A stretch of DNA of 64,000 nucleotides, from contig JAJYLQ010000019.1 of the NCBI GenBank assembly GCA_021787595.1, positions 1 through 64,000 of the forward strand, given 5' to 3'. Shown piece by piece: positions 1,953 to 58,630 of this stretch (positions within the stretch are counted from its first letter, which is position 1; every line of letters starts with the position of its first letter). This DNA is from Chloroflexota bacterium. GTDB taxonomy: Bacteria > Chloroflexota > Anaerolineae > Anaerolineales > Villigracilaceae. The notes beneath the pieces were generated by a model. It made no database searches, had not been told where the DNA came from, and saw only the letters and a list, made by a program, of their open reading frames with translations. Both the position numbers and the translations under genes were made by a program.

Positions 1953-2040
1953 GATAAGCCTCCGTTGCTTTTGTTACTCGTGTTGAAAATTGTGTTGAGA
2001 ATCATGTATTTTTCTCGACATCATTATAACGCACCTTGTT

Positions 2041-3309: not shown

Positions 3310-3380
3310 TCATCCTCCTGAAGAACGTTGATCTTCCAATTTCATGAGACGTTGTGCTGGCTAAAGAGGTTCCCGAAATA

Positions 3381-3410
3381 AAAGAGCCTGTGATTGCCAC
3401 AGGCTCTTTT
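3381..3410 (-). terminator. intrinsic terminator
   Basis: AAAGAGCCTGTG (3381-3392) pairs with CACAGGCTCTTT (3398-3409) across a 5-base loop. On the minus strand the stem runs into TTTTATTT. It lies directly behind the gene ending at 3418, which separates lipoproteins 3 and 4 into different transcripts. Confidence 0.85.
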
Positions 3411-3417
3411 AGGGTCA

Positions 3418-4374: not shown

Positions 4375-4693
4375 TCGGGTTCCTTTCAACATCAGCCGCT
4401 CTGATGCTGTATGCTGCGTAAATCGTTAAACCTGTTGAAATTTTTTTGGGGCGATTTTACGCGGCATCTTGTGCGCGGCTGTAAATATTATACCCGTTTT
4501 AAAAAGCGAGCGCCCGGCATTTCGACCAGGCGCTCATTTCAATCAATTCCAAAAGAATTTATCCAATAGTACCCTGCCAGTGAAATTCTTGTTTTTTGCG
4601 CAAGGATTTTTTTGCCACAAAGAACCCAAAGCGCACGAAAGTCTAAACAGTTTTCCTTCGCGGTTGAATCCTTTTTGGTCCGGCCTGTCCGGG
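4375..4693. other. intergenic: terminator and decayed repeat
   Basis: No gene is seen. 4508-4535 is a terminator hairpin. 4611-4640 reads like the CACAAAG/GCACGAA type of interspersed repeat that also occurs near 41960 and 63890. The segment 4400-4500 is AT-rich and probably holds the promoter of lipoprotein 4. Confidence 0.5.
4508..4535 (-). terminator. intrinsic terminator
   Basis: GAGCGCC (4508-4514) pairs with GGCGCTC (4529-4535). On the minus strand the hairpin is followed by GCTTTTTAAAA. It lies about 160 bases behind the stop of lipoprotein 5. Confidence 0.7.
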
Positions 4694-5605: not shown

Positions 5606-5704
5606 GGTGATTCTCCTCTCACTATGTCCTGATTCTAATGCAATCCGGAGAAAGGCATACTCCCCGTTAATTCCTATTGTGGAAAACGGCCCGCCGGAAA
5701 AAAC

Positions 5705-5729
5705 AAAGAGCCAGGCGGGCCGGCTCTTT
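5705..5729 (-). terminator. intrinsic terminator of ABC operon
   Basis: AAAGAGCC (5705-5712) pairs with GGCTCTTT (5722-5729). On the minus strand the stem leads into TTTGTTTTTT. It lies about 30 bases behind the stop of the ABC ATPase gene and closes the importer operon. Confidence 0.8.
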
Positions 5730-5756
5730 ATTCGGGAAGATGCGAAAGAGATTTTG

Positions 5757-7307: not shown

Positions 7308-7316
7308 GCCATGCTC

Positions 7317-8387
7317 CTATTTCTCGTAAACCTTGCCATCCGCCGCGGGCGGGATGGTCTTTCCAATAATGCCGGTCAGGATCAGCATGGTCAGGAGGTA
7401 AGGCGCCAGGCCGACTACGTACGAGTTTTGAAGGACTGCCAGTTGGGGTGGTATCAGTTCCCGGAAGAATTGCAGGTTGATCTGCAGGGCTTGTGCGGCA
7501 CCAAAGACGAGCGCGGCCGTCCACGCCCCGAATGGCGTCCAGTTTCCAAAGATCATGGCCGCCAGCGCAATGAAGCCGCGGCCATTGGTCATATTTGCTT
7601 CGAAGGAGGAGATTGCTTCAAGAGTGAAATAGGCACCGCCCAGGCCCGCCAAAAATCCGCCGATGATTACATTCATATAGCGCATGCGGATTACATTGAT
7701 GCCGACGGTATCGGCTGCGCGCGGGTGTTCGCCGACCGCGCGCGTTCGCAATCCCCAACGCGTACGGAACAAAACGAAGTGGGTAATGATAACCAGAAGG
7801 ATGGCAGAGATTGCAATAGGCTGCTGCTCGAAGATACGGCCAACAGTCGGAATATCAGCCAGCAGGGGAATGTGAATTGTGGGTAATACGCCCGGCGCAT
7901 TTGGGATTTGACCATGAAAGACACTTCCCGCGCCAAAAAACAGTTGACGGTTCAAGAAACCGGTAATGCCGGCGGCCAGGATATTGATCACCGTTCCGCC
8001 GATGATTTGGTCCACCTTGAACGTGATGGACAGAACCGCGTGCAATAAGGCAAATAGACCGCCCGTGATAATCGCCGCAATTACGCCGACGATCAAACTT
8101 GGCATGGCCGGGTAATGAAAGATGGTATTCATATAGATCGCAGCCAGCCAGCCAAAAAAAGCAGCTCCCAGCATCATGCCTTCGATGCCGATATTAACCA
8201 CACCAGCGCGTTCGCAATAAATGCCGGAGAGCGCACCGAGCGTCAACGGAGTGGCTACTGCAATCGTTGTTGCCATCATGCTGGTGATAATGACAAGCGG
8301 CGAGTTCTGGGAAGTGCCAATCAGGACAACCGTCCCGAACATGACCACGATAATGAGCGCAATAATAGCGAAGCGTCGCCAGTCCAT
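7317..8387 (-). CDS. nucleoside-type ABC permease (NupQ-like)
   Basis: A 356-residue inner-membrane permease of the BPD_transp_2 class with about nine hydrophobic segments. Recognisable motifs are LTLGALSGIYCERAGVVNIG and the cytoplasmic coupling region RTRAVGEHPRAADTVGIN. Eight bases separate it from the upstream permease gene and nine from the downstream ATPase gene, so all are co-transcribed. With its partner permease it would form the heterodimeric channel for nucleosides delivered by the BMP lipoprotein. Confidence 0.92.
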   Translation of the reverse strand: MDWRRFAIIALIIVVMFGTVVLIGTSQNSPLVIITSMMATTIAVATPLTLGALSGIYCERAGVVNIGIEGMMLGAAFFGWLAAIYMNTIFHYPAMPSLIVGVIAAIITGGLFALLHAVLSITFKVDQIIGGTVINILAAGITGFLNRQLFFGAGSVFHGQIPNAPGVLPTIHIPLLADIPTVGRIFEQQPIAISAILLVIITHFVLFRTRWGLRTRAVGEHPRAADTVGINVIRMRYMNVIIGGFLAGLGGAYFTLEAISSFEANMTNGRGFIALAAMIFGNWTPFGAWTAALVFGAAQALQINLQFFRELIPPQLAVLQNSYVVGLAPYLLTMLILTGIIGKTIPPAADGKVYEK

Positions 8388-11337: not shown

Positions 11338-13596
11338 ATGCCCGAGAAGCCGAAGCTTTACAAACGTGATTCCCGTTGGCTTGGCAGTCTGCTCAACGTT
11401 CTGATCGTTCTCATCCTGTGCCTTTCGACATTCACAACAGCCTTTGCCGAAGGCAGCAAGAATTTGTATCCAGGCTCTTCGCCCGCGGGCAGTGCGCGCG
11501 GAAATATCGAGTGGCGTACCAGCAGTTATGGGCCGGCGGGCAGCACTATCTACAGGCGGACCCTGCTGAAAGTTTTTGCGAACACCGGCGAATACATCTT
11601 GATGGGCTCGACTGCAGTCGGCGTCACAAGTGGAGCGACGACCGGGGATATCCTGGTCTATAACCCCGGTTTGGTTACAGGGCCGCCCGGCGCTGAAACG
11701 GTTCCCGCTTCGGCATCCTTCTCCTGCGATGCGGGCCGCTCAGGCACACAAGGCCAGATCCTCAGCCGCGCTGAAGAATTGGCCGGGGCGCAGGCAATTT
11801 CCGGCGGCGGTAACCCGGGCGGTTATGTTCCCTGTTACTATATAGCCCCGGTCACAGGTATTTACAACGTTGTGATCACCGGCGCGGACGGTTTCAGCAG
11901 TGACGCACAGACGGACCCCACAGGCGAGATTTCACTTGCCAGTCCGGCGAACTTCAACGCTTCGCAGGATACCAATGTGGCGGCATGGGATGTAACCGTG
12001 AGGAGTAGCGCTACCACTACTGCCGATATCACAGGCAGGCTTTTCACTGATTATCTCGCCGAAATTACGGGGGGCAACGGGCGCCCTTTGAATTCTTCTG
12101 TTTATGTCGTTACCAACGATGGTTTCATTTACCGGACGGACCTAAATGGCATGGATCCGTATGGGTTTTTATTTTACGGAAACAATGTTGGGTTTTATAA
12201 CAGCGATCATGCCACGCCCCTTTACCATGATGTTTTATCCACAACGACCGCATCCAATGCCAATCAATTGACACAACTACAAGGAGGGGTCTTTGTGGCC
12301 CCGCCGCGATTCCCAGTGTTTTTCAACTATCCCGATGCAGCGGCGCTTACAGCACTGGGTATCCCCACGACGCCATCCGTGCCGCAATTGAACACTTTCA
12401 ATTTCAGCGGTACGGCCGGAGGCAGCAATAGTTATTACAACACAGGCGGCACTTTCAGTTTCATAAGCAATGCCAACGGTTATTTCGATATCATCATCAG
12501 CAGAGGCGCGGATTTCGATCCGACAAATCCGCAGAACAGGGTATTACACGCTCTGGGACACATCGGCACGAATACAATCAGCTGGGATGGCAAGGACAAC
12601 AGCGGCAGCCCATTCCCGGTGGGAACGTATCAGGTTAAATCAACAATCCACGCTGGCGAACTTCACATGGCGTTGATTGACGTGGAAAACAGCGACCAAG
12701 GAGGTCCCAGTTATACCCTGCTCAACCCGCCCGCTGCCTGCGGATTGAAATACGGTTGCTCCACAGCCTTTTATGACGATCGCGGCTACACAACGATGAG
12801 CGGCGTCACTGTTGGAACCGCAGGCTCCATCCTCTGCGGAAACAATCCTCCAAGCGTGCCCGATGCGGTAGTAAACGGATTTGACAGCACTGTTATTCCC
12901 AACCAGCGCGCGTTTGGAACAGCCAGCGGCGGCAATGCGGGCACGCCCTGTCTCGGCTCATTTGGCGACACCAAGGGACTCGACCTGTGGACCTATTTCC
13001 CGAGTCAGGCCGTCATTACGATTGTTGTCGTGGTCAATCAAACGACCCCGCCGTCTCCCATCAATCAAAATGCCCTGCCCGCAACTGGCTTCGCCCCTCA
13101 TGTGATCACAACATTGCCTGTTCGGCCTGCCGATAAGGCCTATTCGAAGATGAGCAGTCTTTGGCTGGAAATTCCTTCATTGGGTGTACAGGAAAATATC
13201 GTGGGGGTGCCAAGCGGTCCGGGCGGATGGGATGTTTCGTGGCTTGGGAATGATATCGGATACCTCGAAGGAACCGCTTTCCCAACCTGGTCGGGCAACA
13301 GCTCGCTGGCTGCACACGTTTATAACGCAGATGGCAACCCCGGTCCCTTTGTCAACCTCGGAAAGCTCAAGTGGGGGGATCAAATCGTTGTTCATGGTTG
13401 GGGAGACCGATATATCTACCAGGTTCAAACCGTGAACGATTCCATCAACCCGAACGACAATAGTCTGGTCACCAGGCATGAAACCTATCCGTGGATTACG
13501 CTGATCACCTGCCGCGGCTATTTCGAGAAAAGCGACTCTTATTTGTATCGGACAGTCGTCCGTGCCATGCTCGTTAAAGTGGAAGCGGATAATTGA
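11338..13596 (+). CDS. secreted protein with LPATG motif and C-terminal sortase domain
   Basis: A 752-residue exported protein; the start follows GGAGGAGA. A signal peptide (about 1-37, ending TFTTAFAE) precedes about 540 residues of beta-rich, Gly/Ser/Asn-rich sequence I do not recognise, with a FlgD-like stretch near 415-440 (ISWDGKDNSG, FPVGTYQVKS). LPATG lies at 580-584, followed by a C-terminal sortase fold (about 600-752): LEIPSLGV, His660 in LAAHVY, Cys725 in TLITC, and Arg738 or Arg742 as the third catalytic residue. Sortases cut LPXTG-type motifs and join proteins to the envelope. Having motif and enzyme on one chain suggests self-processing or tethering (inference). It is a single-gene unit between a strong promoter and a terminator. 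Confidence 0.85.
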   Translation: MPEKPKLYKRDSRWLGSLLNVLIVLILCLSTFTTAFAEGSKNLYPGSSPAGSARGNIEWRTSSYGPAGSTIYRRTLLKVFANTGEYILMGSTAVGVTSGATTGDILVYNPGLVTGPPGAETVPASASFSCDAGRSGTQGQILSRAEELAGAQAISGGGNPGGYVPCYYIAPVTGIYNVVITGADGFSSDAQTDPTGEISLASPANFNASQDTNVAAWDVTVRSSATTTADITGRLFTDYLAEITGGNGRPLNSSVYVVTNDGFIYRTDLNGMDPYGFLFYGNNVGFYNSDHATPLYHDVLSTTTASNANQLTQLQGGVFVAPPRFPVFFNYPDAAALTALGIPTTPSVPQLNTFNFSGTAGGSNSYYNTGGTFSFISNANGYFDIIISRGADFDPTNPQNRVLHALGHIGTNTISWDGKDNSGSPFPVGTYQVKSTIHAGELHMALIDVENSDQGGPSYTLLNPPAACGLKYGCSTAFYDDRGYTTMSGVTVGTAGSILCGNNPPSVPDAVVNGFDSTVIPNQRAFGTASGGNAGTPCLGSFGDTKGLDLWTYFPSQAVITIVVVVNQTTPPSPINQNALPATGFAPHVITTLPVRPADKAYSKMSSLWLEIPSLGVQENIVGVPSGPGGWDVSWLGNDIGYLEGTAFPTWSGNSSLAAHVYNADGNPGPFVNLGKLKWGDQIVVHGWGDRYIYQVQTVNDSINPNDNSLVTRHETYPWITLITCRGYFEKSDSYLYRTVVRAMLVKVEADN

Positions 13597-47848: not shown

Positions 47849-48393
47849 TTACCCTCCGGGCGTGCGTCCCATTCCGAACGCAAAACGCTCATAACATAAT
47901 CGTTAGCATACTTACCATGCCTGTAAACAGCCTCGCGCAATGTGCCCTCCAAAATAAAACCCGCTTTTTCATAAGCGCGTAGGGCGCGCGGGTTGGTTGA
48001 ATAGACTCGCAAATAAATGCGGTTCAGGTTCAATGTTTCAAAACCATGCTGCAACAATAATTGCATTGTCTCGGTGCCATAACCTTGATTCCATACCGAT
48101 TTATCGCCGATCATGATTCCAAGTTCGCCGGCGCGATGCGTCCATTCGATATTGAAGAAACTGCAATTGCCGATCAGTTTCCAGTCTTTGTCCTCCTTTA
48201 TTTCGATTGCCATTGGCTTCTCGTGCGGATCGCGGCTTCCAACACCTTCGAACCATTTCTCCTCATCGCTCATGGACATGGGCAAATAGATCGCCAGGCC
48301 CTCCGTGACTTCGGGGTCGTTGATCCACTCGTAAAACTTTGGAATGTCGCGTTTCTCCACGCCGCGCAAGCGGATGCGTTTGCCATAGATCAT
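47845..48393 (-). CDS. GNAT acetyltransferase (RimJ/SpeG-like)
   Basis: A 182-residue N-acetyltransferase. The beginning RIRLRGVEKRDIPKFYEWINDPEV, the acetyl-CoA loop WNQGYGTETMQLLL and the end NLNRIYLRVYSTNPRALRAYEKAGFILEG fit the RimJ/RimL/SpeG group that acetylates protein N-termini or polyamines. Its stop overlaps the prs start and its start overlaps the meaB stop, each by ATGA, so the three genes are translationally linked. Confidence 0.9.
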   Translation of the reverse strand: MIYGKRIRLRGVEKRDIPKFYEWINDPEVTEGLAIYLPMSMSDEEKWFEGVGSRDPHEKPMAIEIKEDKDWKLIGNCSFFNIEWTHRAGELGIMIGDKSVWNQGYGTETMQLLLQHGFETLNLNRIYLRVYSTNPRALRAYEKAGFILEGTLREAVYRHGKYANDYVMSVLRSEWDARPEGK

Positions 48394-49403
48394 TTCGCCC
48401 TCCCATTTGTCAGCAGCTTGACCGCTTCACCCGGTGACAAACTTCTTTCGAAAACCTGGCGCATGACTTCATCGTAACGCGTTTGCGGGACACGCTCGCG
48501 GAATTGACTCATCAGTCTCTCTTGCAGCGCCGTCTCCATCTCGGACTCGAGGCGGGCGCGCTCACGAACGGCCCAATCTCCGCTGACGCGTAGATGCTCG
48601 GCGTGCTTCGCGATTTGCCCGGCCAGTTCAGCGATTCCATTTCCTTCGGTTGCGATGGTTTTGATGATCGGAGGAATCCACATGTTGCCCTCACCCCCAC
48701 CCCCTCTCCCAACGGGAGAGGGGCGCAGGGGTGAGGGGACACCGTGATGCAAATAAACTCTTTGTGTTGGATGCGCCATCTCCAGCATGGACTTGAGCGC
48801 CTTCTCGGTATTTTCCACGCCGGGGCGGTCCGCTTTGTTTACGACCAGGATGTCTGCAATTTCGAGGATGCCGGCTTTGATGGCCTGGATATCGTCGCCG
48901 AGTCCGGGCGCTTCCACCACCAGCGTGGTATGGGCCAATCGGGCGATGTCCACTTCACTTTGTCCCGCGCCGACCGTTTCGATCATGACCACATCGTAAC
49001 CTGCCGCGTCGAAGACTTGCGCCATGCCCGCAGTCGCTTGCGCCAATCCGCCGAGCGAGCCGCGCGAGGCCATCGAACGGATGAACACGCCGTCGTCGCC
49101 GCTCAAATCCTTCATGCGGACACGGTCGCCCAACACCGCGCCGCCCGTGAATGGACTCGATGGATCCACAGCGACAATCGCAACGCGTTTGTTCTGCGTT
49201 CGGAAATGCAACGCGAGTTGATTGACCAGCGACGATTTGCCTGTGCCCGGCGCGCCGGTCACGCCGATGAGGTGTGCCTTGCCCGTGCGCGGAAAAAGCG
49301 AATCCAGCGCGGCGCGGCCATCGGGCGTGTCGTTTTCGATTTGAGTCAGCAGGCGCGCCAGCGCGAGACGGTCACCGTTCAAAACTGAATCTATCAAAGT
49401 CAT
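48390..49403 (-). CDS. meaB: methylmalonyl-CoA mutase-associated GTPase MeaB
   Basis: 337 residues from MTLIDSV at 49403; the longer frame to 49445 runs into a repeat and is less likely. A G3E GTPase: Walker A GVTGAPGTGKSS, DPSSPFTGGAVLGDRVRM, ETVGAGQSE and NKADRPG. It guards and reloads adenosylcobalamin in methylmalonyl-CoA mutase. Residues about 221-239 (SPLRPSPVGRGGGGEG) are extra compared with the family, located just before WIPPIIKTIATEGNGI, and are encoded by a palindromic repeat. The mutase B12-binding subunit lies just upstream. Confidence 0.93.
   Translation of the reverse strand: MTLIDSVLNGDRLALARLLTQIENDTPDGRAALDSLFPRTGKAHLIGVTGAPGTGKSSLVNQLALHFRTQNKRVAIVAVDPSSPFTGGAVLGDRVRMKDLSGDDGVFIRSMASRGSLGGLAQATAGMAQVFDAAGYDVVMIETVGAGQSEVDIARLAHTTLVVEAPGLGDDIQAIKAGILEIADILVVNKADRPGVENTEKALKSMLEMAHPTQRVYLHHGVPSPLRPSPVGRGGGGEGNMWIPPIIKTIATEGNGIAELAGQIAKHAEHLRVSGDWAVRERARLESEMETALQERLMSQFRERVPQTRYDEVMRQVFERSLSPGEAVKLLTNGRAK
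48688..48737. repeat. in-frame palindromic repeat within meaB
   Basis: A 50-bp double palindrome: the outer arms CCCTCACCCC (48688-48697) and GGGGTGAGGG (48728-48737) and the inner arms CCCCTCTCCC (48701-48710) and GGGAGAGGGG (48714-48723) are both perfect. It is the best-preserved copy of the family. Confidence 0.9.
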
Positions 49404-49415
49404 AAATCCATTCAC

Positions 49416-49508
49416 CACAGATAAACACAGACCCTGAACCCTCAAGGAGCAAATGGCATAGGGCGTCGAACGCGGATTCTTTATGCCAGGAATTCACGTT
49501 TATCTGTG
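49416..49508. repeat. long inverted repeat with CACAGATAAAC ends
   Basis: CACAGATAAAC (49416-49426) and GTTTATCTGTG (49498-49508) are perfect inverted ends about 93 bases apart, with an inner GGCATA/TATGCC pair. It lies between meaB and the B12-binding gene. The left flank CATTCACCACAG resembles other repeats of the window (33480, 63980). Confidence 0.75.
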
Positions 49509-49519
49509 TCCGCATGCGG

Positions 49520-49963
49520 CTATTTCTCCGAAATCGAATTTCGAATATCCTTCACGATATCTTCCGTCGAAGCGCCGGGGCCGTACACGCCGCTGATGCC
49601 CAGTTCCATCAAACGCGGAATATCCTCATCCGGCACGATGCCGCCGATGAATACTCTGACACGCGTCTGCCCGTTGGCCTTCAATAATTCCATGATGCGC
49701 GGCGCCAGCGCCATGTGCGCGCCGGATAGAATCGAAAGTCCCACCACATCCACATCCTCCTGCAAAGCGGCTTCAGCGATCATTTCGGGGGTTTGGCGCA
49801 GGCCGGTGTAGATCACTTCCATGCCGGCATCGCGCAGCGCGCGCGCCACCACTTTTGCGCCGCGGTCGTGCCCGTCGAGGCCGGGCTTGGCCACCAGCAC
49901 GCGGATCTTCTTATCGCTCGAAGTGGTTTGCTCGCCTGCCCCATGTTTTCCAGGGTTGACCAT
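49520..49963 (-). CDS. methylmalonyl-CoA mutase B12-binding subunit
   Basis: A 147-residue stand-alone cobalamin-binding domain. The DxHxxG motif that places the His under cobalt is visible in [10 protein letters not shown], followed by GLSILSGAH and [10 protein letters not shown], typical of the C-terminal part of methylmalonyl-CoA mutase. It would pair with a separate catalytic subunit not seen in this window. Placed ahead of meaB on the same strand, it fits propionate or succinate metabolism. Confidence 0.92.
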
Positions 49964-50109
49964 TTTTCCTCCGCGGGTGAATTCGCTGAAATTATACTAT
50001 GCCGCTTAAAGCCTCCATCGTTGATGAATAACCCGAATGTAACGAATCCCATTCTGCAATTCATCTGCAATTCTGGTGATTTTCCAGGCGGCGGTTCAAA
50101 ATTAAAATA

Positions 50110-50118
50110 TGCTATACT
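50110..50118 (+). promoter_or_regulatory. extended -10 promoter giving a leaderless mRNA
   Basis: TGC followed by TATACT (50113-50118) is an extended -10 element. Its expected start point is 50125, the A of the ATG of the first operon gene. No consensus -35 is visible. The eight-gene operon is thus predicted to begin with a leaderless transcript. Confidence 0.6.
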
Positions 50119-50124
50119 CTTATT

Positions 50125-50403
50125 ATGCAAAACCCTGACGGGCAGGCATCGTGGCATACGGGCCACCTACAGCCGCGCGAACACTGGCTTCAATGGGCTG
50201 AAACGTTGCACCGTTATCAACTTGATGGGATTGCATCCTGGTTCCTTGATGCCGGCAGGCCGCTGGCTCTGCTCTCCGCGCAGCTGCTTTATTTCGGGCG
50301 TCCGTTTCTTGGACAAGGCGTTGAGTCGCTCGCCCGTATGCTCGAATCAGACGATGAAGCGCGCGCCTTCGCTTCGTTCCTCGATGGGGAATCTTTCTCA
50401 TGA
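50125..50403 (+). CDS. small protein, first gene of unknown operon
   Basis: A 92-residue soluble protein with two helical stretches: HWLQWAETLHRYQLDGIASWFLDAG, and PLALLSAQLLYFGRPF followed by ESLARMLESDDEARAFASFL. There is no signal peptide; the middle is hydrophobic enough to pack on a membrane. It overlaps the next gene by ATGA and the TATACT promoter abuts its ATG. I do not recognise it. Confidence 0.7.
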   Translation: MQNPDGQASWHTGHLQPREHWLQWAETLHRYQLDGIASWFLDAGRPLALLSAQLLYFGRPFLGQGVESLARMLESDDEARAFASFLDGESFS

Positions 50404-51137
50404 ACCTGATTGGACTCGGCGTCGTCGGCTTTTCTGCCATTCTCCTTCTGGCTCTTTCACTTATTAAACGTAAATCACCAGTCAATTTGCGCTCCATCCC
50501 CGCGCTGTCGAAGTTGTACCGCGCCTTTGGCTTGAGCGTCGAAGACGGAACACGGCTTTTTGTCGGGCTGGGAAATACCAGCTTGTTGACGCCGTCGGCG
50601 GGCGCGCCGCTGGCAGGTCTGGGAATGCTGCGCCACCTCGCGGAACGGACCTCGCTCAGCGACAATCCGCCGATTGCGGCTTCCGGCGATTCTGCGCTGG
50701 CGCTGCTCGCACAGGATACGCTCGAAGCCGGTTATAAAGCCGCGGGCGCGGGAGAGTTTTATCAACCAACGACTGGACGTTTGACCGGCCTGACTCCTTT
50801 TTCGTCGGCGGCAGGAACGATCCCGATCCTGTTCGATGAAAATGTTTCGGCCAGCATTTTGATCGGCCACTTTGGCGTGGAGTCTGCGTTGATTGCCGAT
50901 GCCGCAGACCGCGAGAATGAATTTCTGCTCGGCTCCAGCGATGACCTTTCGGCGCAGGCCGCGTTGTTTGCGTCCGCGCCCGAAGCGCTGATCGGCGAGG
51001 AACTTTTTGCGACCGGCGCGTATTTGGGAGCGACTGCTTCGCATGAAGCCAGTCTGACGGTCCAGGACATTTTGCGCTGGGCCATCATTTTGATTTTGCT
51101 CGCGGGTGCGGCTTTGAAATTTTTGGGGATCACCTGA
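50400..51137 (+). CDS. DUF6754-like membrane protein
   Basis: A 245-residue protein with a membrane helix at each end (about 3-20 and 222-243). The central domain contains the run YRAFGLSVEDGTRLFVGLGN, SGDSALALLAQDTLEAGY, GLTPFSSAAGTIPILFDEN and LIGHFGVESALIADAA. This pattern fits my memory of DUF6754, a family of unknown function, but I cannot verify it here. It is the second gene in the eight-gene operon and is overlapped on both sides (ATGA and TGATG). Confidence 0.75.
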   Translation: MNLIGLGVVGFSAILLLALSLIKRKSPVNLRSIPALSKLYRAFGLSVEDGTRLFVGLGNTSLLTPSAGAPLAGLGMLRHLAERTSLSDNPPIAASGDSALALLAQDTLEAGYKAAGAGEFYQPTTGRLTGLTPFSSAAGTIPILFDENVSASILIGHFGVESALIADAADRENEFLLGSSDDLSAQAALFASAPEALIGEELFATGAYLGATASHEASLTVQDILRWAIILILLAGAALKFLGIT

Positions 51138-51748
51138 TGCGTTACGTTGCGCTTGTCCTTGCAATTCTCACCGGGCTGATCGTTCTCGTCGGATATTTCG
51201 TCCCGGCATTGGCTCCGGTTCAAGATATGTTGTTGACTTGGTCCATTATTTTGGCGGGAACGGCTACGCTGGTTGGCGTGTTCAATTTAATCCTTGTTCA
51301 TGGGACAAAAGTCACGAAGCGCGAGAAGGGCAGCATTTATAGTGCGTTGTTATTGTTCTGCCTGTTCGCGGCATTTATTTTCGGGCTTGCGCTTGGCCCC
51401 GATCATCCTGACATCCGTTTACTGGTGGATGTGGTCATCGTTCCGGTCGAAGCAACTTTGATGGCCTTACTGGCTGTCACGCTTCTTTACGCAAGCATCC
51501 GTCTTTTGCGGCGCCGCGCCAATGTGATGAGCGTGGTTTTTATTCTCACTGCTGTGTTGATGCTGTTTGCTTCTGCAACGCTGCCGTTTGGCGAGATCGG
51601 CCCGTTGAATGATTTTCTCCGGCCATGGTTTCAACACGTGCTGGCATTGGGCGGAGCGCGCGGTATTTTGATCGGCGTTGCGCTCGGCACACTGACGACC
51701 GGCCTGCGCGTGCTGTTCGGCGCGGATCGTCCGTATGGCGGCAAATAA
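51137..51748 (+). CDS. six-helix membrane protein of unknown function
   Basis: 203 residues with about six hydrophobic helices (near 4-24, 30-53, 67-87, 95-120, 130-148, 165-190). It has no obvious catalytic motif; a basic loop RRRANVM lies between helices 4 and 5. Start and stop codons interlock with both neighbours, so it is part of the same membrane complex or pathway by inference. Confidence 0.75.
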   Translation: MRYVALVLAILTGLIVLVGYFVPALAPVQDMLLTWSIILAGTATLVGVFNLILVHGTKVTKREKGSIYSALLLFCLFAAFIFGLALGPDHPDIRLLVDVVIVPVEATLMALLAVTLLYASIRLLRRRANVMSVVFILTAVLMLFASATLPFGEIGPLNDFLRPWFQHVLALGGARGILIGVALGTLTTGLRVLFGADRPYGGK

Positions 51749-54294
51749 TGGCCGATACGATCAAGTGTCCGGTTTGCGGCGAAGTTAATCCGGCAGACGT
51801 GGAGTTTTGCCAGAACTGCCAATCGCGGCTCCAGCCGTTGACGGGTCCGCTCAAAGGCGAGGATGCGCCGCTTACGCCGGGTCAAATCCCGACGAAGAAG
51901 ACGACATCCGAGCTTGAGCCGATCCTGCCTCAATGGCTGCGCGAGGCGCGCCAGCAGGCGCGGCAGTCGGCGGAGGATGAAGAATCCAAAAAGGAAGATG
52001 AACAAAAGACCACGCCGATCCCGCGCGCTCCCGATTTGCTGGCGGGGCTTGCCTCCCAGAACGAAGCCGAAGATGAGGAGACTCCCGATTGGTTGACCAA
52101 TATTACCGGCGTTCCGGCTCCCAGGAAAAAGGTCGAACCCGAAGATGCTCAAGTCAAATTTGTTGAGCTGGGTCATGAGGAGCCGGCTGGGTCTCCCTCA
52201 GAACAGGCGTCCACAACGAAGCCGGAACAGGGAAACATGCCCTCATGGATGGCCGGACAGGCAGCCGCGCCCGAAAAGGATGAACTGGCCGATTGGTTTG
52301 CCCGGGCCTCCGCTCCTGCTGCGGATGAGAGCGCGGAACATCCCTCGGACGGCGGGACGGCTCGCGTTGAACCGGCGCCAACCCAGCCGGAGCCGCCGCC
52401 TGCTGCTTTAGATTCTGGCGTTGCGGACTGGCTGAAAAATTTGGATGCGAATGCCGCATCTGCGTCCGCTCCCGCGCGACCCGCACCCGCATCGGGAATC
52501 GAGACGCCAGATTGGTTGAAGAATCTCGATACGAGTGCGCCGGCCGCCGAACAGAAACCTGTTCAACCTGAGCCGCCATCGAATATTGAAGTCCCCGATT
52601 GGTTGAAAAGCCTTGAAACCAACGCGCCGGTTATCGAACAACCGCCTGCGCAAAATATTCCTTTGGCTGAAACGCCCGCTGCCGGGACTCCGCCAAGCCA
52701 TGATGCAACTGAAACAGGGTCAGAGGTTCCCGGCTGGATAAAAGGTTTGGGCCGGGAAAGCGCGGCGTCCCAGGCTTCTTCCGAAGTTTTGCCCGATTGG
52801 ATGAAGCCGGCCGGCCCTCCAAGTCAAACACCTCCTGCTGCGAATCCCGAACCGACCGCTGAAGAAGCTTTGCCCTCGACCGAACTGCCCGACTGGCTTT
52901 CTTCACTCAAGCCAGCTGAGCCGCCGCCGGCGGAAGAGACCCCGGTTGCGCCAATATTGGGTCCCGGGGGACCGTCCACAGAAGAGACTTCCTCTGCGCC
53001 TGCCTTCACCGAGGATTCGATTTCGAGCAGCGATGCGGATGAAGTCTTTGGTTCGATGCAGCTGCCCGATTGGCTCACCAGCGCCACAACAGGCCAGCCC
53101 GCGGCGGAGGAAAACCTTCCGCGCGCCGCGGCAAAAGATGAATCGATTGCTCCAGCTGAACTGCCATCCTGGGTGCAGGCCATGCGCCCGGTGGAAGCGG
53201 CCGTGCAGGAATCATCTGCCGCTGCCGGGGAGACCGCGGTCGAATCAAGCGGGCCGTTGGCAGGTTTGCAGGGAGTCTTACCCGCCATCCCGGGTGCGGC
53301 CGTTCCATCGAGCAGACCCAAATCGCATTCGATCAAACTCAACGCCACCGACGAACAACAGGCGCAGGCCGCGCTGCTCGAAAAGATCCTTGGCGCTGAA
53401 ACCGCGCCGGTTCCAATGAAGGCCAGTTCGGTGGTAACCTCCCAACGCGTTTTGCGCTGGGCACTCAGCGCGATTCTCCTGATCGTGTTGGGCGGTGTTG
53501 TCTTCAGCCAAACTCAGATTTTTCCCTTGCCGAGTCTGGCTCCCAATGAAACAAACTCCGCCATAGCAGCCGTCAACGCCATCCCCCAGGGCGCCCCGGT
53601 ATTGGCCGTCTTCGATTATCAACCATCCACCGTTGGCGAGATGGAAGCAGCCGGTTTGCCTTTGATGGATCAGCTGATTCTGCTGCGGCATCCGCGCCTT
53701 GCGATCCTTTCCACATCGCCGACCGGCGCAGCACTTGCGGAACGCTTCATGTCCTCTGCATTGAGCACGTTGAACGCACAAAACAGCTATCAACGCGGCG
53801 AACAATATGTTGATTTTGGTTATTTGCCTGGCGGACTCACCGGTGTTTATGCGTTTGCTCAAAGCCCGACTGCGGCGATGCCGCTTGGAGCGGACCGGAG
53901 CGCGATCTGGCAGTCCGCGCCCCTTCAAGGCGTGACGCATCTTTCGGACTTCGCGGCGGTTATCGTTTTGACGGACAGCGTGGACTCGGGCCGCACCTGG
54001 ATCGAGCAGACCGCCCTCGAGCGCGGCAGCGCGCCAATGATCATTGTTTCCAGCGCGCAGGCGGGACCGATGCTTTTGCCTTATGTTGACTCCGGCCAGG
54101 TCGCTGGGCTTGTCTCAGGTTTGTATGGCGCGGCGGGTGTGGAGCAGGCAAACGGCGGCCTGCCCGGCCGCGTGCGCCATTACTGGGACGCGTACAGCGT
54201 TGGATTATTGATCGCGGTCGCGGCGATCATTTTGGGCGGCTTGTGGAATCTGGTGACCGGATTCCAGGCGCGTCGTACGCAGGAGTCGAGATGA
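51748..54294 (+). CDS. zinc-ribbon protein with repeated PDWL motifs and membrane helices
   Basis: 848 residues from the ATG at 51748, overlapping the previous stop (TAATG). An N-terminal zinc ribbon has CPVCGEVNPADVEFCQNC. A long Pro/Ala/Glu-rich disordered region (about 40-530) is studded with about twelve PDWL-like motifs (for example TPDWLTNI, VADWLKNL, VPDWLKSL, LPDWLSSL, LPSWVQAM). Then come a membrane helix (about 570-590: VLRWALSAILLIVLGGVVF), an extracytoplasmic domain of about 230 residues and a C-terminal helix (VGLLIAVAAIILGGLWNLV). The repeated motif region faces the cytoplasm and looks like a multivalent docking strip. I know no family name for the whole. Confidence 0.8.
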   Translation: MADTIKCPVCGEVNPADVEFCQNCQSRLQPLTGPLKGEDAPLTPGQIPTKKTTSELEPILPQWLREARQQARQSAEDEESKKEDEQKTTPIPRAPDLLAGLASQNEAEDEETPDWLTNITGVPAPRKKVEPEDAQVKFVELGHEEPAGSPSEQASTTKPEQGNMPSWMAGQAAAPEKDELADWFARASAPAADESAEHPSDGGTARVEPAPTQPEPPPAALDSGVADWLKNLDANAASASAPARPAPASGIETPDWLKNLDTSAPAAEQKPVQPEPPSNIEVPDWLKSLETNAPVIEQPPAQNIPLAETPAAGTPPSHDATETGSEVPGWIKGLGRESAASQASSEVLPDWMKPAGPPSQTPPAANPEPTAEEALPSTELPDWLSSLKPAEPPPAEETPVAPILGPGGPSTEETSSAPAFTEDSISSSDADEVFGSMQLPDWLTSATTGQPAAEENLPRAAAKDESIAPAELPSWVQAMRPVEAAVQESSAAAGETAVESSGPLAGLQGVLPAIPGAAVPSSRPKSHSIKLNATDEQQAQAALLEKILGAETAPVPMKASSVVTSQRVLRWALSAILLIVLGGVVFSQTQIFPLPSLAPNETNSAIAAVNAIPQGAPVLAVFDYQPSTVGEMEAAGLPLMDQLILLRHPRLAILSTSPTGAALAERFMSSALSTLNAQNSYQRGEQYVDFGYLPGGLTGVYAFAQSPTAAMPLGADRSAIWQSAPLQGVTHLSDFAAVIVLTDSVDSGRTWIEQTALERGSAPMIIVSSAQAGPMLLPYVDSGQVAGLVSGLYGAAGVEQANGGLPGRVRHYWDAYSVGLLIAVAAIILGGLWNLVTGFQARRTQESR

Positions 54295-54959
54295 TCTCTC
54301 CTGATTTGATCGCTGGCATCTTTGCTTTTCTTTTATCGCTGATGATCTTCAGTTATCTCGTCGGGGATAACCCGCTCTTCCGCGTGGCGGTACATATCTT
54401 TGTCGGTGTTTCGGCGGGATATGTGGCAGCGGTCGCCTGGTGGCAGGCTTTGTGGCCGGATCTGATCTTCCCGCTGGTTAGCGGCCCGGCCCTCCAACGC
54501 GCGCTCCTGGCTGTTCCGCTCGTTTTGAGCGGCCTGTTGTTGATGAAAGCCTGGCCCGCGTTGAGCCGGCTCGGCACGCCTTCGATGGCGATTCTGGTCG
54601 GCATCGGGTCCGCCGTGGCGATTGGCGGCGCGGTCACCGGCACGCTCTTCCCGCAAATCGGCGCAACGATCAATGCCTTCGATCTGCACAAGGCTGCCTC
54701 ACCTTTCGAGGTATTGATCAATGGCGGATTTATTTTGGCCGGCGTGGCGACAACGCTTGTATATTTCCATTTCAGCGCTGGCCCTGCCGCCGGCGGTTCT
54801 GTGAAGCGTTTCAGCCTGATTGAGATCATTGCGTTCGTCGGCGGTATTTTCCTCGCGATCACCCTCGGCGTTTTGTTCGCGGGCGTTTATTCCGCTGCGT
54901 TGACGGCCTTGATCGAACGCCTGCATTTCTTTGGCACATTCTTCGGATTGGGTAATTGA
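54291..54959 (+). CDS. seven-helix membrane protein of unknown function
   Basis: 222 residues from the ATG at 54291, which overlaps the stop of the preceding gene (ATGA). About seven helices span the protein (near 4-22, 30-52, 60-80, 90-112, 115-130, 140-158, 180-210). No motif is recognised. Its place between the zinc-ribbon scaffold and the ATPase gene suggests a channel or core subunit; this is inference. Confidence 0.75.
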   Translation: MISPDLIAGIFAFLLSLMIFSYLVGDNPLFRVAVHIFVGVSAGYVAAVAWWQALWPDLIFPLVSGPALQRALLAVPLVLSGLLLMKAWPALSRLGTPSMAILVGIGSAVAIGGAVTGTLFPQIGATINAFDLHKAASPFEVLINGGFILAGVATTLVYFHFSAGPAAGGSVKRFSLIEIIAFVGGIFLAITLGVLFAGVYSAALTALIERLHFFGTFFGLGN

Positions 54960-54962
54960 TCC

Positions 54963-56720
54963 ATGCCTGCTTCTCTGGTCGAAGGCGATTCTCTCCTTGC
55001 AGTAGACATTGGCGGCGCGAACACGCGCGCCGTGTTGTTCGACATTGTGGAAGGAACATACCGCTTCATTGCATCCGGTTCCGCGCCATCCACGGCCGAA
55101 GCGCCGTTCAAGGACGTGAGCAAAGGTGTTCGCAGCGCCCTCGAGAATTTGCAGGCGGTCACTGGGCGGAGTCTGCTGGGGGCGGACCAAAGGTTGATTA
55201 CGCCCGCGCAGGCCGACGGATCCGGTGTGGACGCGTTCGTGTGCACACTGTCCGCAGGCCCGGCGCTCAAGACCGTCATCGTGGGACTGCTGTCGGATGT
55301 TTCGCTCGAAAGCGCGCGGCGTCTGGCAGAGACAACTTATACGCGTGTCGCCGAATCCATCGGGCTCAACGATCATCGCAAGCCGGATGAGCAGATTGAC
55401 ACGCTTCTTCGATTGCGGCCCGACGTGGTGATCATTACCGGCGGCACGGACGGCGGCGCATCGCGCTCGATCCGCAAGATGCTCGAGCCGGTTGGGCTTT
55501 CAGGTTATTTGCTGGCGCCCGAACGAAGACCATCGGTGTTGTTCGCGGGAAATCAAAAATTGGACGATGAAGTCAGAGAACTTTTGGGCGGCGTGAGTTC
55601 GTCGCTGCATTTCAGCCCGAATGTGCGGCCTTCGCTCGATACCGAGGACCTCGAACCGGCCGCGCGGGAATTGACTTCGCTCTATCTCGGGGTTCGCAAA
55701 CGCCAGCTCAAAGGCGTGGACACATTGGAGGCATGGGCCGCAGGTCATGTCCTGCCAACCGCGTATGCCGAAGGCCGGATGATGCGATTCCTCGGACAGG
55801 TTTATGGCGGCGCGCGCGGCGGCATTCTCGGCATTGACATCGGCGCCTCGGCGGCGGTGATCGCGGCGGGGTTCCGCGAGCGGAATTCGCTGGGCGTGTA
55901 CCCGCATTTCGGCCTCGGCGAAAATCTGCCGGCCCTGCTTCAATACACAACGCTCGAAAATATTCTGCGCTGGTCGCCGCTCGATATTTCGACCAGCGTC
56001 CTGCGCGATTATATTTTCCAAAAATCCCTGTACCCTTCATCCATTCCGGCAACGAAAGAAGACCAGGCCGTCGCGCAGGCTGTGACGCGCGAAGCTTTGT
56101 ATCTTGCGATGCAAACCGCCAGGCGCGATTTCCCGCGTTCGGCGCGCGTTCCCAAACCCGGATTGCTTCCGTTCTTCGAACCGATCATCGCGGGCGGCGG
56201 CGCGCTCGGCGATGCGCCCACCCCCGGACAGGGTTTGCTCCTGCTGCTGGATGCCGTTCAACCAGTTGGCGTCACCACGATCATTCTGGATCGCAATAAT
56301 TTGCTGCCATTGCTCGGTGCGGCCGCGGCGCGCAACAGCATCCTGCCGGTTCATGTGTTGGAGTCGGGCGCGTTCCAAAGTTTGGGCACGGTCGTCTCCG
56401 TTGTTGGAGATGCGAGTTATGGATCGTTGATCGTCCGCGCCCGCCTGGTCTACGAAAACGGAACCGAAGCGCGCGCGGACGTGAAATACGGCAGCATGGA
56501 AATTCTGCCTCTGCCGGTCGGACAATCTGCCAGGTTGACGCTTCAGCCGCAGCGCGGCGCGGACGTTGGATTCGGTCCGGGACGCGGCGGCACGACCACG
56601 GTCAGCGGAGGGGCGATGGGCGTGGTGGTTGACGGGCGCGGCCGCCCGCTGATTCTGCCGGACGACCCGGTGCGGCGGCGCGAATTGATCAAACGCTGGT
56701 TGTGGACGGTTGGCAGCTAA
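54963..56720 (+). CDS. MutL-like (glutamate mutase L family) ASKHA ATPase
   Basis: 585 residues. The actin/Hsp70-like ATP-binding fold shows phosphate-1 AVDIGGANTRAVLFD (14-28), a second phosphate loop GIDIGASAAVIAAG, and VVIITGGTDGGASR. These match the MutL/GlmL family (PF13941 type), named for its place next to B12-dependent glutamate mutase, with an unproven chaperone-like role. It lies in a membrane-protein operon. A B12 mutase subunit and MeaB are encoded divergently 5 kb away. Whether it acts on a mutase or on the membrane complex is open. Confidence 0.85.
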   Translation: MPASLVEGDSLLAVDIGGANTRAVLFDIVEGTYRFIASGSAPSTAEAPFKDVSKGVRSALENLQAVTGRSLLGADQRLITPAQADGSGVDAFVCTLSAGPALKTVIVGLLSDVSLESARRLAETTYTRVAESIGLNDHRKPDEQIDTLLRLRPDVVIITGGTDGGASRSIRKMLEPVGLSGYLLAPERRPSVLFAGNQKLDDEVRELLGGVSSSLHFSPNVRPSLDTEDLEPAARELTSLYLGVRKRQLKGVDTLEAWAAGHVLPTAYAEGRMMRFLGQVYGGARGGILGIDIGASAAVIAAGFRERNSLGVYPHFGLGENLPALLQYTTLENILRWSPLDISTSVLRDYIFQKSLYPSSIPATKEDQAVAQAVTREALYLAMQTARRDFPRSARVPKPGLLPFFEPIIAGGGALGDAPTPGQGLLLLLDAVQPVGVTTIILDRNNLLPLLGAAAARNSILPVHVLESGAFQSLGTVVSVVGDASYGSLIVRARLVYENGTEARADVKYGSMEILPLPVGQSARLTLQPQRGADVGFGPGRGGTTTVSGGAMGVVVDGRGRPLILPDDPVRRRELIKRWLWTVGS

Positions 56721-56744
56721 CTGGAGACACGGAGATAAACAGAG

Positions 56745-57803
56745 ATGGCGCTGGCACCTGTTCATCATATCCTTCCGCTTACGACGATTGTGCGCGAACG
56801 CGTCCTGCCGGTAAAAGGCAGGGTGCTGGCGCGGCTGAATCAAAGGGTCAGCCCGACGGATGTCGTGGCCGAAGCGACCTGGTTCCGCGAACATGTCTTC
56901 CTCGACGCGTCGCGCATACTGAGTCTGTCGCCGGAGGCGGCGGACAAATTGATTCGCTGCAAAGTCAATGACCGGCTTGCGGCTGGTGCGGTGATCGCCA
57001 GCGGCCGCGGCCTGATGCCGAAAATCGTCAAGACGCCAGTCGAAGGCCGCGTGGTGGCCGCAGGCGGAGGCCAGATTCTGATCGAGTCCGGTGAGTCGCG
57101 CATGGAACTGCGCGCCGGGATTTCCGGCAATGTCATCAATATCATTCCTGACCGCGGCGTGGTGATCCAAACCGCGGGCGCGCTGGTGCAGGGCGTGTGG
57201 GGCAATGGGCGCGTCGATACCGGCGTGATGATCAACCTGGCCGAGAAGCCCGATGCCGCACTGACCGCCAATCGAATGGATGTGAGCATGCGCGGCTCGG
57301 TGATCGTTGCCGGGCAGGTTCGGGATGCCGAGACCCTGCAGGCCGCCGCGGAACTGCCTGTGCGCGGATTGATCCTTGCCAGCATGTATCCATCGCTTCT
57401 CACCACCGCGCGCAGCGTGCGTTATCCGATTGTGTTGACCGATGGCTTCGGTATGATGCCGATGAACTCCGCCGCGTACAAATTGATCACGACGAATGTC
57501 AAACGCGAAGCCACATTGAATGCGGAAGCCTTCGACCGTTACAGCGGGGTGCGGCCTGAAGTCATTATCCCGCTTCCAATTTCATCTGAACCTGTCCCGC
57601 CGGTTGACGAGGAAACATTCGCAGCCGGGCAAACCGTTCGTTTGCGCCGCCCGCCTGCAGTCGGCATGATCGGGACGATCGCGTCGCTGCGATCCGGCCT
57701 GACCACATTCCCAAGCGGGATGCGCGCCGCCGCGGCCGATGTCAAACTCGAAAACGGCGAGCAGGTGCTCGTCCCTCTTGTAAATCTGGAAGTTGTGGGA
57801 TAA
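56745..57803 (+). CDS. conserved-looking cytoplasmic protein after MutL-like gene
   Basis: 352 residues, no signal or membrane helix. The N-terminal half includes VRERVLPVKGRVLARLNQRVSPTDVV, a barrel-sandwich or lipoyl-like pattern (VKTPVEGRVVAAGGGQILI). The middle has GVMINLAEKPDAALTANRMD. The C-terminal part has a KOW/SH3-like end (GQTVRLRRPPAVGMIGTI, GEQVLVPLVNLEVVG). It is probably the partner of the ASKHA protein, 24 bases upstream. Function unknown. Confidence 0.75.
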   Translation: MALAPVHHILPLTTIVRERVLPVKGRVLARLNQRVSPTDVVAEATWFREHVFLDASRILSLSPEAADKLIRCKVNDRLAAGAVIASGRGLMPKIVKTPVEGRVVAAGGGQILIESGESRMELRAGISGNVINIIPDRGVVIQTAGALVQGVWGNGRVDTGVMINLAEKPDAALTANRMDVSMRGSVIVAGQVRDAETLQAAAELPVRGLILASMYPSLLTTARSVRYPIVLTDGFGMMPMNSAAYKLITTNVKREATLNAEAFDRYSGVRPEVIIPLPISSEPVPPVDEETFAAGQTVRLRRPPAVGMIGTIASLRSGLTTFPSGMRAAAADVKLENGEQVLVPLVNLEVVG

Positions 57804-57832
57804 TAAACAAAATCACGTGAGGAGAAGAAACC

Positions 57833-58363
57833 ATGTATGAAGGCGACTCATCCAACCTCGAACCTCAACCGCCGGAAGAATCCAGCAATCGAACGTTCCT
57901 GATCGCGGCCGGAATTCTCGGCGGTATTGTGCTTCTTTCCATTGCATGCCTCGCCGGATATGCCCTGCTGATCCTCCCCGGTCAGCAGAAGGCCGGTCAG
58001 CAGGCAGCCAGCGCCAATGCGACTCAGAACTCGCTGGTGGCACAGGGGCTGACTGCGACTTTCCAGGCAGTTACGTTCCCAACCGCGACGGTCACACCGA
58101 GCCAGACGCCGGTGGTCGCGCAGGCCTCCGATACGCCGATTCCCATCACGCCCACGAACACGCAGGACCCGGCGACGGCCACCGTTGCCGCGGCGTTGAC
58201 TTTGGCCGCGCAGGCCCAACTGACTCACGTTCCCACTTCGACGGCCCTGCCCGGCACCGGCATCGGCGATCAATACGGCGCGCCTGGTTTGGTGATCGCT
58301 GGCATTGCACTGGTGGCGGTCATTTTCCTCGCACGCCGCTTGCGCGCCGCGCCGACGAAATAA
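57833..58363 (+). CDS. membrane protein with LPGTG sorting-type C-terminus
   Basis: 176 residues; the start follows GAGGAG. An N-terminal membrane helix (about 22-48) acts as anchor or uncleaved signal, followed by a Thr/Pro/Ala-rich extracellular linker. The end has LPGTG, a spacer, a hydrophobic helix (PGLVIAGIALVAVIFLA) and a basic tail RRLRAAPTK: the order of a cell-wall sorting signal. The sortase-domain protein at 11338-13596 shows that this genome encodes sortase folds. It is the last gene of the operon, so the complex may have a surface-exposed part. Confidence 0.75.
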   Translation: MYEGDSSNLEPQPPEESSNRTFLIAAGILGGIVLLSIACLAGYALLILPGQQKAGQQAASANATQNSLVAQGLTATFQAVTFPTATVTPSQTPVVAQASDTPIPITPTNTQDPATATVAAALTLAAQAQLTHVPTSTALPGTGIGDQYGAPGLVIAGIALVAVIFLARRLRAAPTK

Positions 58364-58365
58364 AT

Positions 58366-58397
58366 TTGTAGGGGCAACTCGCGAGTCGCCCCTACAA
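58366..58397. repeat. 32-bp near-perfect palindrome
   Basis: TTGTAGGGGC (58366-58375) pairs with GCCCCTACAA (58388-58397) and the centre ACTCGCGAGT is itself palindromic. Only one mismatch interrupts the whole. It is a copy of the GTAGGGGC family seen at 40537. Confidence 0.75.
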
Positions 58398-58408
58398 TGG
58401 AAAATTTG

Positions 58409-58440
58409 AATGGGACAACAATTGTTGTCCCATTTTTGAT
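58409..58440. terminator. bidirectional terminator of operon and tRNA
   Basis: A perfect palindrome, AATGGGACAACAA (58409-58421) with TTGTTGTCCCATT (58422-58434), followed by TTTGATTTT on the plus side. It ends the eight-gene operon and, on the other strand, lies right after the tRNA 3' end. Confidence 0.85.
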
Positions 58441-58444
58441 TTTG

Positions 58445-58517
58445 TGGGGCGGAAAGGAGTCGAACCTTCAACTTGCGCCTTATAAGGACGTTGCTCTGAC
58501 CATTGAGCTACCGCCCC
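58445..58517 (-). tRNA. tRNA-Ile with anticodon UAU
   Basis: Reading the minus strand: acceptor GGGGCGG pairs with CCGCCCC. The D arm is GCTC/GAGC with an 8-base loop. The anticodon stem ACGTC/GGCGC has one A-C mismatch at the top. The anticodon loop is CTTATAA, so the anticodon is TAT. The variable loop is AAGTT, the T arm GAAGG/CCTTT with loop TTCGACT, and the discriminator is A73. It has 73 bases and no encoded CCA. U12-A23 and A73 agree with isoleucine identity. It reads AUA, which most bacteria read with a lysidine-modified CAU anticodon instead. Confidence 0.9.
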
Positions 58518-58630
58518 ATGTGTAATTGAAGCGCCGATGTGCTTTTGCACCTCACTGTCTGTTTGCGAAGCATACAGCGGGATTACGAAGAGTGCAAAGT
58601 TCAAATCTAGCTTGTCAATTGGTCAAAGCA

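Follow-up and report, generated by a model that had tools for sequence, protein, structure and literature searches.

The DNA analysed here, referred to as the window, is a 64,000-nucleotide stretch (positions 1 to 64,000 of contig JAJYLQ010000019.1) from the Chloroflexota bacterium assembly GCA_021787595.1, a member of the Anaerolineales. It contains a run of eight genes, g1 to g8, all on the forward strand and spanning positions 50125-58363. Based on the open reading frames (ORFs) and start sites, the first genes overlap by 4 (g1/g2), 1 (g2/g3), 1 (g3/g4) and 4 (g4/g5) bases, and the last three junctions are gaps of 3, 24 and 29 bases. An initial annotation, made from the sequence alone, had described an eight-gene run with this spacing, and that description holds. 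It had also recognized a DUF6754-like protein (g2), a zinc ribbon (in g4) and a MutL-like ASKHA protein (g6), all of which exceed their Pfam cut-offs. No Pfam family reaches its cut-off for g1, g3, g5, g7 or g8, and no NCBIfam model does so for any of the eight proteins.

The arrangement was examined in related genomes. A search for g2 in 61 genomes from the host genus, family and order, its own genome included, returned a match in 57. Of the 56 other positive genomes, 40, belonging to 11 families, supplied stretches that together with the window give 41 order loci. The sequence g1 to g8 is kept in all 41, with genes missing solely at contig ends (two within g4 and one within g7). From a scan of the genome collection, the best 80 of 394 relatives were used, and all 80 are named Chloroflexota loci. 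The eight genes occur in order and on one strand in 64 of these; the other 16 reach a contig end. Given the same gene order in 64 of 80 loci, with the remainder cut by contig ends, we conclude that the arrangement is conserved beyond chance. In six of the 64 loci (L090, L094, L096, L108, L113, and L130) one or more genes are broken into at least two ORFs, perhaps through sequence errors. Across the 64 loci the median junctions are -4, -1, -1, +1, +5, +3 and +50 bases, and the first two of these, g1-g2 and g2-g3 (medians -4 and -1), do not exceed 39 bases in any locus. The flanks differ, judging by gene names read from the sequence and not from a family search: a phosphoglucomutase-like gene lies downstream in 36 loci and a glgC-like gene upstream in 21, while a MeaB-like gene flanks 22 and a B12 subunit gene 18. 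As the flanks vary in this way, a link with methylmalonyl-CoA mutase was ruled out as a conserved context. In the window, genes for a MeaB-like GTPase and a methylmalonyl-CoA mutase B12 subunit (48390-49963, reverse strand) are the divergent neighbors of the operon.

The first gene, g1 (50125-50403), encodes a soluble protein of 92 amino acids (aa) without a family, for which orthologues were found in all 41 order loci. The 245 aa protein g2 (50400-51137) belongs to DUF6754 (PF20539; 77.2 bits against a cut-off of 27, E-value 1.4e-21), a family whose name carries no described function. Two transmembrane (TM) helices, found in all 64 orthologues, enclose a domain of about 200 aa that is probably cytoplasmic, because basic residues follow the first helix. 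The 203 aa protein g3 (51137-51748) has six TM segments, and a match to ABC2_membrane_3 that scores 8.9 bits against a cut-off of 31.6 (E-value 1). The 222 aa protein g5 (54291-54959) has six or seven; the initial annotation had counted seven helices, whereas simple hydropathy yields six segments. Searched against solved chains, the g5 profile found a single match, a cortical-lytic enzyme, at 0.038. Profile comparison (hhalign) of all 28 pairs among the eight families gave no pair above 4.2%, and no homology between g3 and g5.

The 848 aa protein g4 (51748-54294) combines an N-terminal zinc ribbon (residues 3-29, 51754-51834; DUF7577, 34.3 bits against a cut-off of 28), a low-complexity linker (residues 41-567, 51868-53448) with 12 PDWL-type motifs, and a Rossmann-like domain (residues 587-817, 53506-54198) set between two TM helices. 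All 12 tryptophans of the 527-residue linker fall within the pattern [PLAVGI]xW[LMIVF], compared with 0.97 expected in shuffled sequences, so the PDWL repeats that had been noticed at first sight are real. Among the 64 orthologues the linker has a median of 526.5 residues and 14 tryptophans. The motif count corresponds to 84% of the linker tryptophans; the median is 12 motifs per orthologue (range 1-20), compared with 1.1 after shuffling, and the consensus is (E/D)-L-P-D-W-L-x-x-L. By these sequence counts, g4 appears to be a genuine multivalent scaffold in Anaerolineales. The g4 proteins of probable Chloroflexia contain 51 (L159), 24 (L160), 25 (L161) and 45 (L174) motifs, and those of L159 and L160 are missing the N-terminal zinc ribbon.

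AlphaFold2 modeled g4 residues 562-848 as a Rossmann-like domain with a hydrophobic helix on either side, at a mean pLDDT of 94.3 and a pTM of 0.89. As basic residues precede the first helix and follow the second, this domain is probably outside the cell and the motif arm in the cytoplasm. In fold searches the best Foldseek E-value was 4e-3 and the VIA Z score was 8.3, tied with dehydrogenases; the nearest folds include RCK domains, with scores at background level. Scores at this level do not support an identification as an RCK domain or a dehydrogenase. No Pfam family matched the domain (the best value among 49 members was 0.025), and the searches returned no solved relative above background. 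The g2 and g4 domains look alike (“AQA...G...AGAY”) despite their opposite inferred topology, but homology between them was rejected, with an hhalign probability of 2.9% (4.2% with wider alignments and 0.3% with TM helices trimmed).

The 585 aa protein g6 (54963-56720) matches Pfam MutL (PF13941) over residues 12-467 with 205.9 bits against a cut-off of 27 (E-value 1.3e-60), and continues for about 115 aa past the match. In a 36-row alignment G17, T21 and G412 are kept in all rows, G294 in 35 and D292 in 33; we take these residues to belong to the phosphate 1, phosphate 2 and adenosine motifs. The ASKHA phosphate and adenosine motifs are conserved in g6, a predicted nucleotide binder.

For the 352 aa protein g7 (56745-57803), the model has a mean pLDDT of 86.3 and a pTM of 0.61 (the other four models range from 66.5 to 77.1 in pLDDT) and is mostly beta, in line with the barrel-type partner of the initial annotation. 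Its N-terminus is a barrel-sandwich hybrid, which is supported by 13 of 22 members that match RnfC_N (best value 1e-6). Residues 146-277 form a swivelling domain that aligns with UPF0107 protein 2hi6 (Z 11.9, 2.3 Å, 112 residues) and with the aconitase X chain 7cnr_B (Z 10.7), and residues 289-352 form a KOW domain (Z about 9). The top Foldseek match is the NusG protein of T. maritima (2xhc, E-value 1e-6), with a TM-score of 0.20. Single domains of g7 therefore share folds with UPF0107, the aconitase X small chain and the KOW proteins NusG and Spt5, but the combination of three aligns well with no listed solved chain. We noted a conserved QGVWGNGR motif (residues 143-172, window 57171-57260) that resembles lysozyme cell-wall repeats. 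The profile matches 5i8l, named a lysozyme, at 1.1e-9 over three stretches, the best at residues 143-172, and we take those stretches of 5i8l to be Cpl-7 repeats. A Cpl-7 repeat in g7 was rejected, as the 48-residue chain 4cvd matched at just 0.039 and the model has beta strands there; we judge the likeness to be due to chance.

The last gene, g8 (57833-58363), encodes a 176 aa protein with an N-terminal TM helix, a stalk rich in Thr, Ser, Ala and Pro, and a C-terminal end of LPGTG, hydrophobic stretch and RRLR. This is the LPGTG-tailed protein of the initial annotation, and the tail is as described there. Of the 64 orthologues, 36 have LPxTG and 44 have LPx[TSAVG]G, and all have the N-terminal TM helix. 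In LPGTG, TM helix and basic tail, g8 is like LPXTG sortase substrates, but it differs in having an N-terminal TM helix after a 21-residue tail. No Pfam family, whether for anchors or otherwise, matches g8 at E-values up to 1, and the NCBIfam NPXTG model reaches 10.7 bits against a cut-off of 23.5. A relation to the gliding protein GltJ was discarded: the NCBIfam match (E-value 0.011) has 14.9 bits against 450 and most likely reflects composition. Five sortase-like (PF04203) matches exceed the cut-off in the host genome, several of them inside very long reading frames. One of the five lies in the window, at 13165-13575 on the forward strand.

A survey of the phylum covered 301 Chloroflexota genomes; as the genomes are related, the counts are not independent trials. 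We detected g2 in 65 genomes and, using profiles, g5 in 69, g6 in 175 and g7 in 159. Both g2 and g5 occur in 63 genomes, with g2 lacking g5 in two and g5 lacking g2 in six. Among the 69 genomes with g5, 68 have g6 and 64 have g7. The pair g6 and g7 is present in 153 genomes. The operon is made up of two modules, a membrane module (g1-g5) and a more widely distributed cytosolic pair (g6-g7). We picked 20 distant Chloroflexota loci from the 65 g2-positive survey genomes. Genes g2, g3 and g4 are in order in 19 of these and g2 to g6 in 17; L171 and L173 end at contig ends, and the twentieth locus, L166, has a marginal g2 match (8e-4) and no operon.

In addition, 20 further loci were opened in which g7 or g6-g7 lies apart from the membrane module, one of them with g4C-g5 alone. 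The genes g6 and g7 are adjacent in 15 of the 20, and eight of those loci encode a PxWL-motif protein directly upstream. Seven of the eight proteins have paired CxxC zinc-ribbon signatures (the exception is in L194). Those of L183, L184, L185, L193, and L197 carry 6 to 15 motifs and, in place of the TM-domain-TM part, a basic-aromatic C-terminal tail without a TM helix; those of L190, L194, and L195 have a C-terminal or near-C-terminal TM helix. The membrane tether of the scaffold is kept by differing means, as TM-domain-TM, a single TM helix or a basic-aromatic tail. In three of four probable Chloroflexia loci (L180, L181, and L182), g7 adjoins a fused response-regulator-histidine-kinase protein. 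In L180 and L182 a receiver-like protein is encoded beyond the fused kinase, the one in L182 being below the cut-off. In L198 (genome G228, 1437-8378), homologues of g4C and g5 occur in a genome that has no match for g6 or g7. They lie next to an nSTAND ATPase with a transcription-regulator domain, and a PspA/IM30 protein and a solute-binding-vWA protein are encoded further along. L198 may represent a related system that uses another ATPase.

Outside Chloroflexota the search covered plasmid records, a collection of limited use here, and 14 control genomes, and its results do not imply absence elsewhere. There was no DUF6754 match in the control genomes and no relative of g2 or g7 in the plasmid records. 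Eight plasmid records matched g6 at 20-26% identity and, where annotated, these are of the GlmL or glutamate mutase L type. Among the titles and abstract openings listed in a literature search there was nothing on the operon, no paper turned up for the name DUF6754, and the papers among the PDWL matches listed were, by their titles and openings, unrelated to the motif of g4.

The host genome encodes a second protein with the motif, which is unrelated to g4. This TPR-PDWL protein of 847 aa (L227, 3485-6028; contig C63 of host genome G000, 149484-152024) has eight P[DES]W[LV] motifs in a central low-complexity linker. Of 42 Chloroflexota genomes that we chose, 32 have a homologue, and at least three PxW motifs are present in 16 of the 30 loci read; the zeros in this count are unreliable, as in loci such as L234 and L243 the longest open segment came from the opposite strand or was truncated where the locus ends. 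The ten negative genomes include all three f31 genomes, both f33 genomes of the set, G212 and four others. The lack of matches in f31 and f33 fits a joint loss. Since two unrelated scaffolds share one motif, the LPDWL motif probably has a common reader.

The observed gene order, co-occurrence, motif multiplicity, predicted folds and conserved nucleotide motifs are the basis on which we propose a membrane-anchored complex of Chloroflexota, encoded by the operon and centered on g6 as an actin-fold nucleotide switch. We hold this reading tentatively, giving it slightly less than an even chance; that the operon products form one membrane complex is likely. The initial annotation had already suggested a single envelope complex, and part of this stands: the unit is conserved, five of the proteins have membrane segments, the ASKHA motifs are present and the scaffold is multivalent, tethered to the membrane and probably cytoplasmic. 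The association itself, together with its topology, ATP hydrolysis, the docking partner and the direction of signaling, is what we infer from these features. The core would consist of g6, presumably driven by ATP, with g7 as a cytosolic adaptor. As organizer, g4 would carry about a dozen (E/D)LPDWL docking motifs on its disordered N-terminal arm, to be read in the cytosol, most likely by g6, by g7 or by some bound partner. Its TM-Rossmann-TM part would join a membrane assembly with g2, g3 and g5 and present the Rossmann-like domain on the outer face. Which nucleotide g6 carries, or whether the outer domain is occupied, could then be relayed through the membrane assembly, and clients sharing the motif, for example the TPR-PDWL protein, may be clustered at the membrane. 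An extra surface stalk would be provided by g8 in Anaerolineales and some other lineages.

Such a complex can be likened to PilM- or FtsA-type hubs, without membership in those systems. The PilM-PilN-PilO and GspL platforms also bring together an actin-fold cytosolic protein and membrane proteins, possibly by short peptides. However, the operon has no PilM family match, pilin, assembly ATPase or secretin, and has instead a multivalent LPDWL arm and a Rossmann-like outer domain. No known system fits the operon in the tests made. We consider doubtful the further step of a previously undescribed envelope machine that would couple a g6-g7 ATPase to a membrane complex with an outer Rossmann sensor and be organized by a widespread LPDWL network, in which many-motif scaffolds (g4, the TPR-PDWL protein and soluble zinc-ribbon variants) would compete for one reader and cluster or condense at the membrane depending on nucleotide.

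A number of observations weigh against the proposed complex. We know of no interaction, ATPase activity or phenotype on record for the eight proteins, and none of 1,071 matching ORFs is a fusion of any two of them. The initial annotation had named scattered, independently conserved genes as a sign against a single unit, and this is half of what we see: the order is kept in the 64 loci described above, but the g6-g7 pair occurs with neither g2 nor g5 in 89 of the 301 genomes, and g7 lies away from g1-g6 in each of the four g7 loci that we opened in probable Chloroflexia. On the g6 tree (48 rows, with weak deep forks and several long rows), the membrane module needs at least three, and probably five or six, gains or losses. 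Seven of the 15 g6-g7 loci lack a scaffold gene immediately upstream, and the upstream proteins of L190, L194, and L195 carry just one or two motifs. Some loci with the membrane module have a motif-poor g4 (three motifs in L163, one in L167, two in L175, four in L176 and two in L178). In the f31 lineage (L164 and L165) g4 is reduced to TM-domain-TM with zero motifs; thus, the motif arm is dispensable. G212 has g2, g5, g6 and g7 yet no TPR-PDWL match. Finally, g8 was found in five of the 20 distant loci (L163, L169, L172, L177, and weakly L175), so the surface protein is not an invariant part. Its place as a component, as first annotated, applies in Anaerolineales, and we regard g8 as a lineage-specific surface addition there and in some other lineages.

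Other explanations account for parts of these data. The fused kinase beside g7 in three of four probable Chloroflexia loci, the regulator-type nSTAND ATPase, PspA/IM30 and solute-binding-vWA neighbors of g4C-g5 in L198, and the RCK domains among the nearest folds of g4 would suit a sensory or stress platform, with the outer domain as receptor for a ligand or for the state of the envelope and g6-g7 in control of a cytosolic response. We consider this unlikely: such contexts are seen in few loci, where the genes are arranged differently, and L198 runs up to a contig end; the RCK score of Z 8.3 is background, tied with dehydrogenases; and of the 25 clusters listed as flanking the Anaerolineales operon, none with a sensor or output gene is shared by many loci. 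The resemblance to RCK-like gating domains, of weak value, would also suit a transporter or channel with g3 and g5 as the pore, g2 and g4 as auxiliary proteins and g6 for energy or gating. This further has in its favor two conserved polytopic proteins of no known family, a predicted ATPase partner and the ABC2_membrane_3 match of g3, far under its cut-off. Nevertheless, it is distinctly unlikely, as no transporter family exceeds its cut-off for g3 or g5, the one solved chain found by the g5 profile is a cortical-lytic enzyme (g3 was not part of that search), and we know of no precedent for an ASKHA protein energizing a transporter. A surface-display or pilus-like machine, with g6 as a PilM-like platform and g8 as a sortase-processed stalk, is very improbable. 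The C-terminal LPGTG-TM-RRLR of g8, the LPxTG of its orthologues and the five sortase-like matches in the genome speak for it. On the other hand, g8 has its own N-terminal TM helix and no anchor family over cut-off, a g8 match is missing in 15 of the 20 distant loci (some cut by contig ends), and neither PilM nor any other pilus family is among the g6 Pfam matches with E-values up to 1 (filters drop most above 0.1).

We attach hardly any probability to the idea, now largely refuted, that g6 is a GlmL-type reactivator of an adenosylcobalamin mutase and the membrane genes are passengers. Homology to GlmL and MutL over residues 12-467, with the strong Pfam MutL score, speaks for it, as do the neighboring genes: the window has both a B12 subunit gene and a MeaB-like gene beside the operon, and among the 64 loci 18 have the former and 22 the latter. 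However, g6 misses the GlmL equivalog cut-off NF040745 (93.8 against 475) and that of the subfamily TIGR01319 (67.1 against 204.05), and at 585 aa, with its extra C-terminal stretch, it is longer than the four GlmL comparators (461-467 aa). All four comparators sit between glmS and the gene for the mutase E subunit, and they form their own clade in the 48-row tree with a support of 100/100. Glutamate mutase E was matched (E-values up to 0.001) in 21 of the 301 genomes, over the cut-off in four and below it in 17; three of those over the cut-off are among the 175 genomes with g6. There was no such match in the host genome, and no glmS or mutase E gene in the region of the window. Methylmalonyl-CoA mutase and g6 show no association across the 301 genomes (both in 142, g6 only in 33, mutase only in 96, neither in 30; p 0.32). 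As far as these tests go, cut-offs, gene context, co-occurrence and tree lead us to reject g6 as a GlmL-type reactivase, and its family is named after a B12 enzyme with which g6 does not co-occur. It is equally improbable that the operon is a co-transcribed cluster of functionally unrelated genes. Long operons can persist for expression reasons, and g7 and g8 come and go, but g2 and g5 are jointly present (63 genomes with both, 8 discordant) and g1-g2 and g2-g3 stay within 39 bases in all 64 loci.

Conservation at this level in a major and poorly understood bacterial phylum makes an important role of the operon very likely, and the proposed membrane complex offers items that can be tested: the pair of motif and reader, the actin-fold protein g6 and the confidently predicted outer domain of g4. 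Should the motif network prove real, it would represent a scaffold system that works through repeats of a short linear motif; to our knowledge, such scaffolds are uncommon in bacteria.

We also noted several sequence features at the ends of the operon. A weak sigma-70-like promoter match (50081-50108, forward strand) lies just upstream of g1 and is the sole such match in 49900-58600, where 2.6 were expected in shuffles, i.e., it is not above chance. A terminator-like hairpin follows g8 (58408-58435, forward strand), one of 15 pattern matches in the region against 11.6 expected in shuffles (standard deviation 3.9), which is not clearly above chance. Directly after g8, at 58366-58397, there is a 14-pair hairpin with the arms GTAGGGGC...GCCCCTAC, possibly a dispersed palindromic repeat. 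Further downstream, on the reverse strand at 58444-58517, is a tRNA-Ile gene with the anticodon TAT, an unusual choice for the AUA codon in bacteria.

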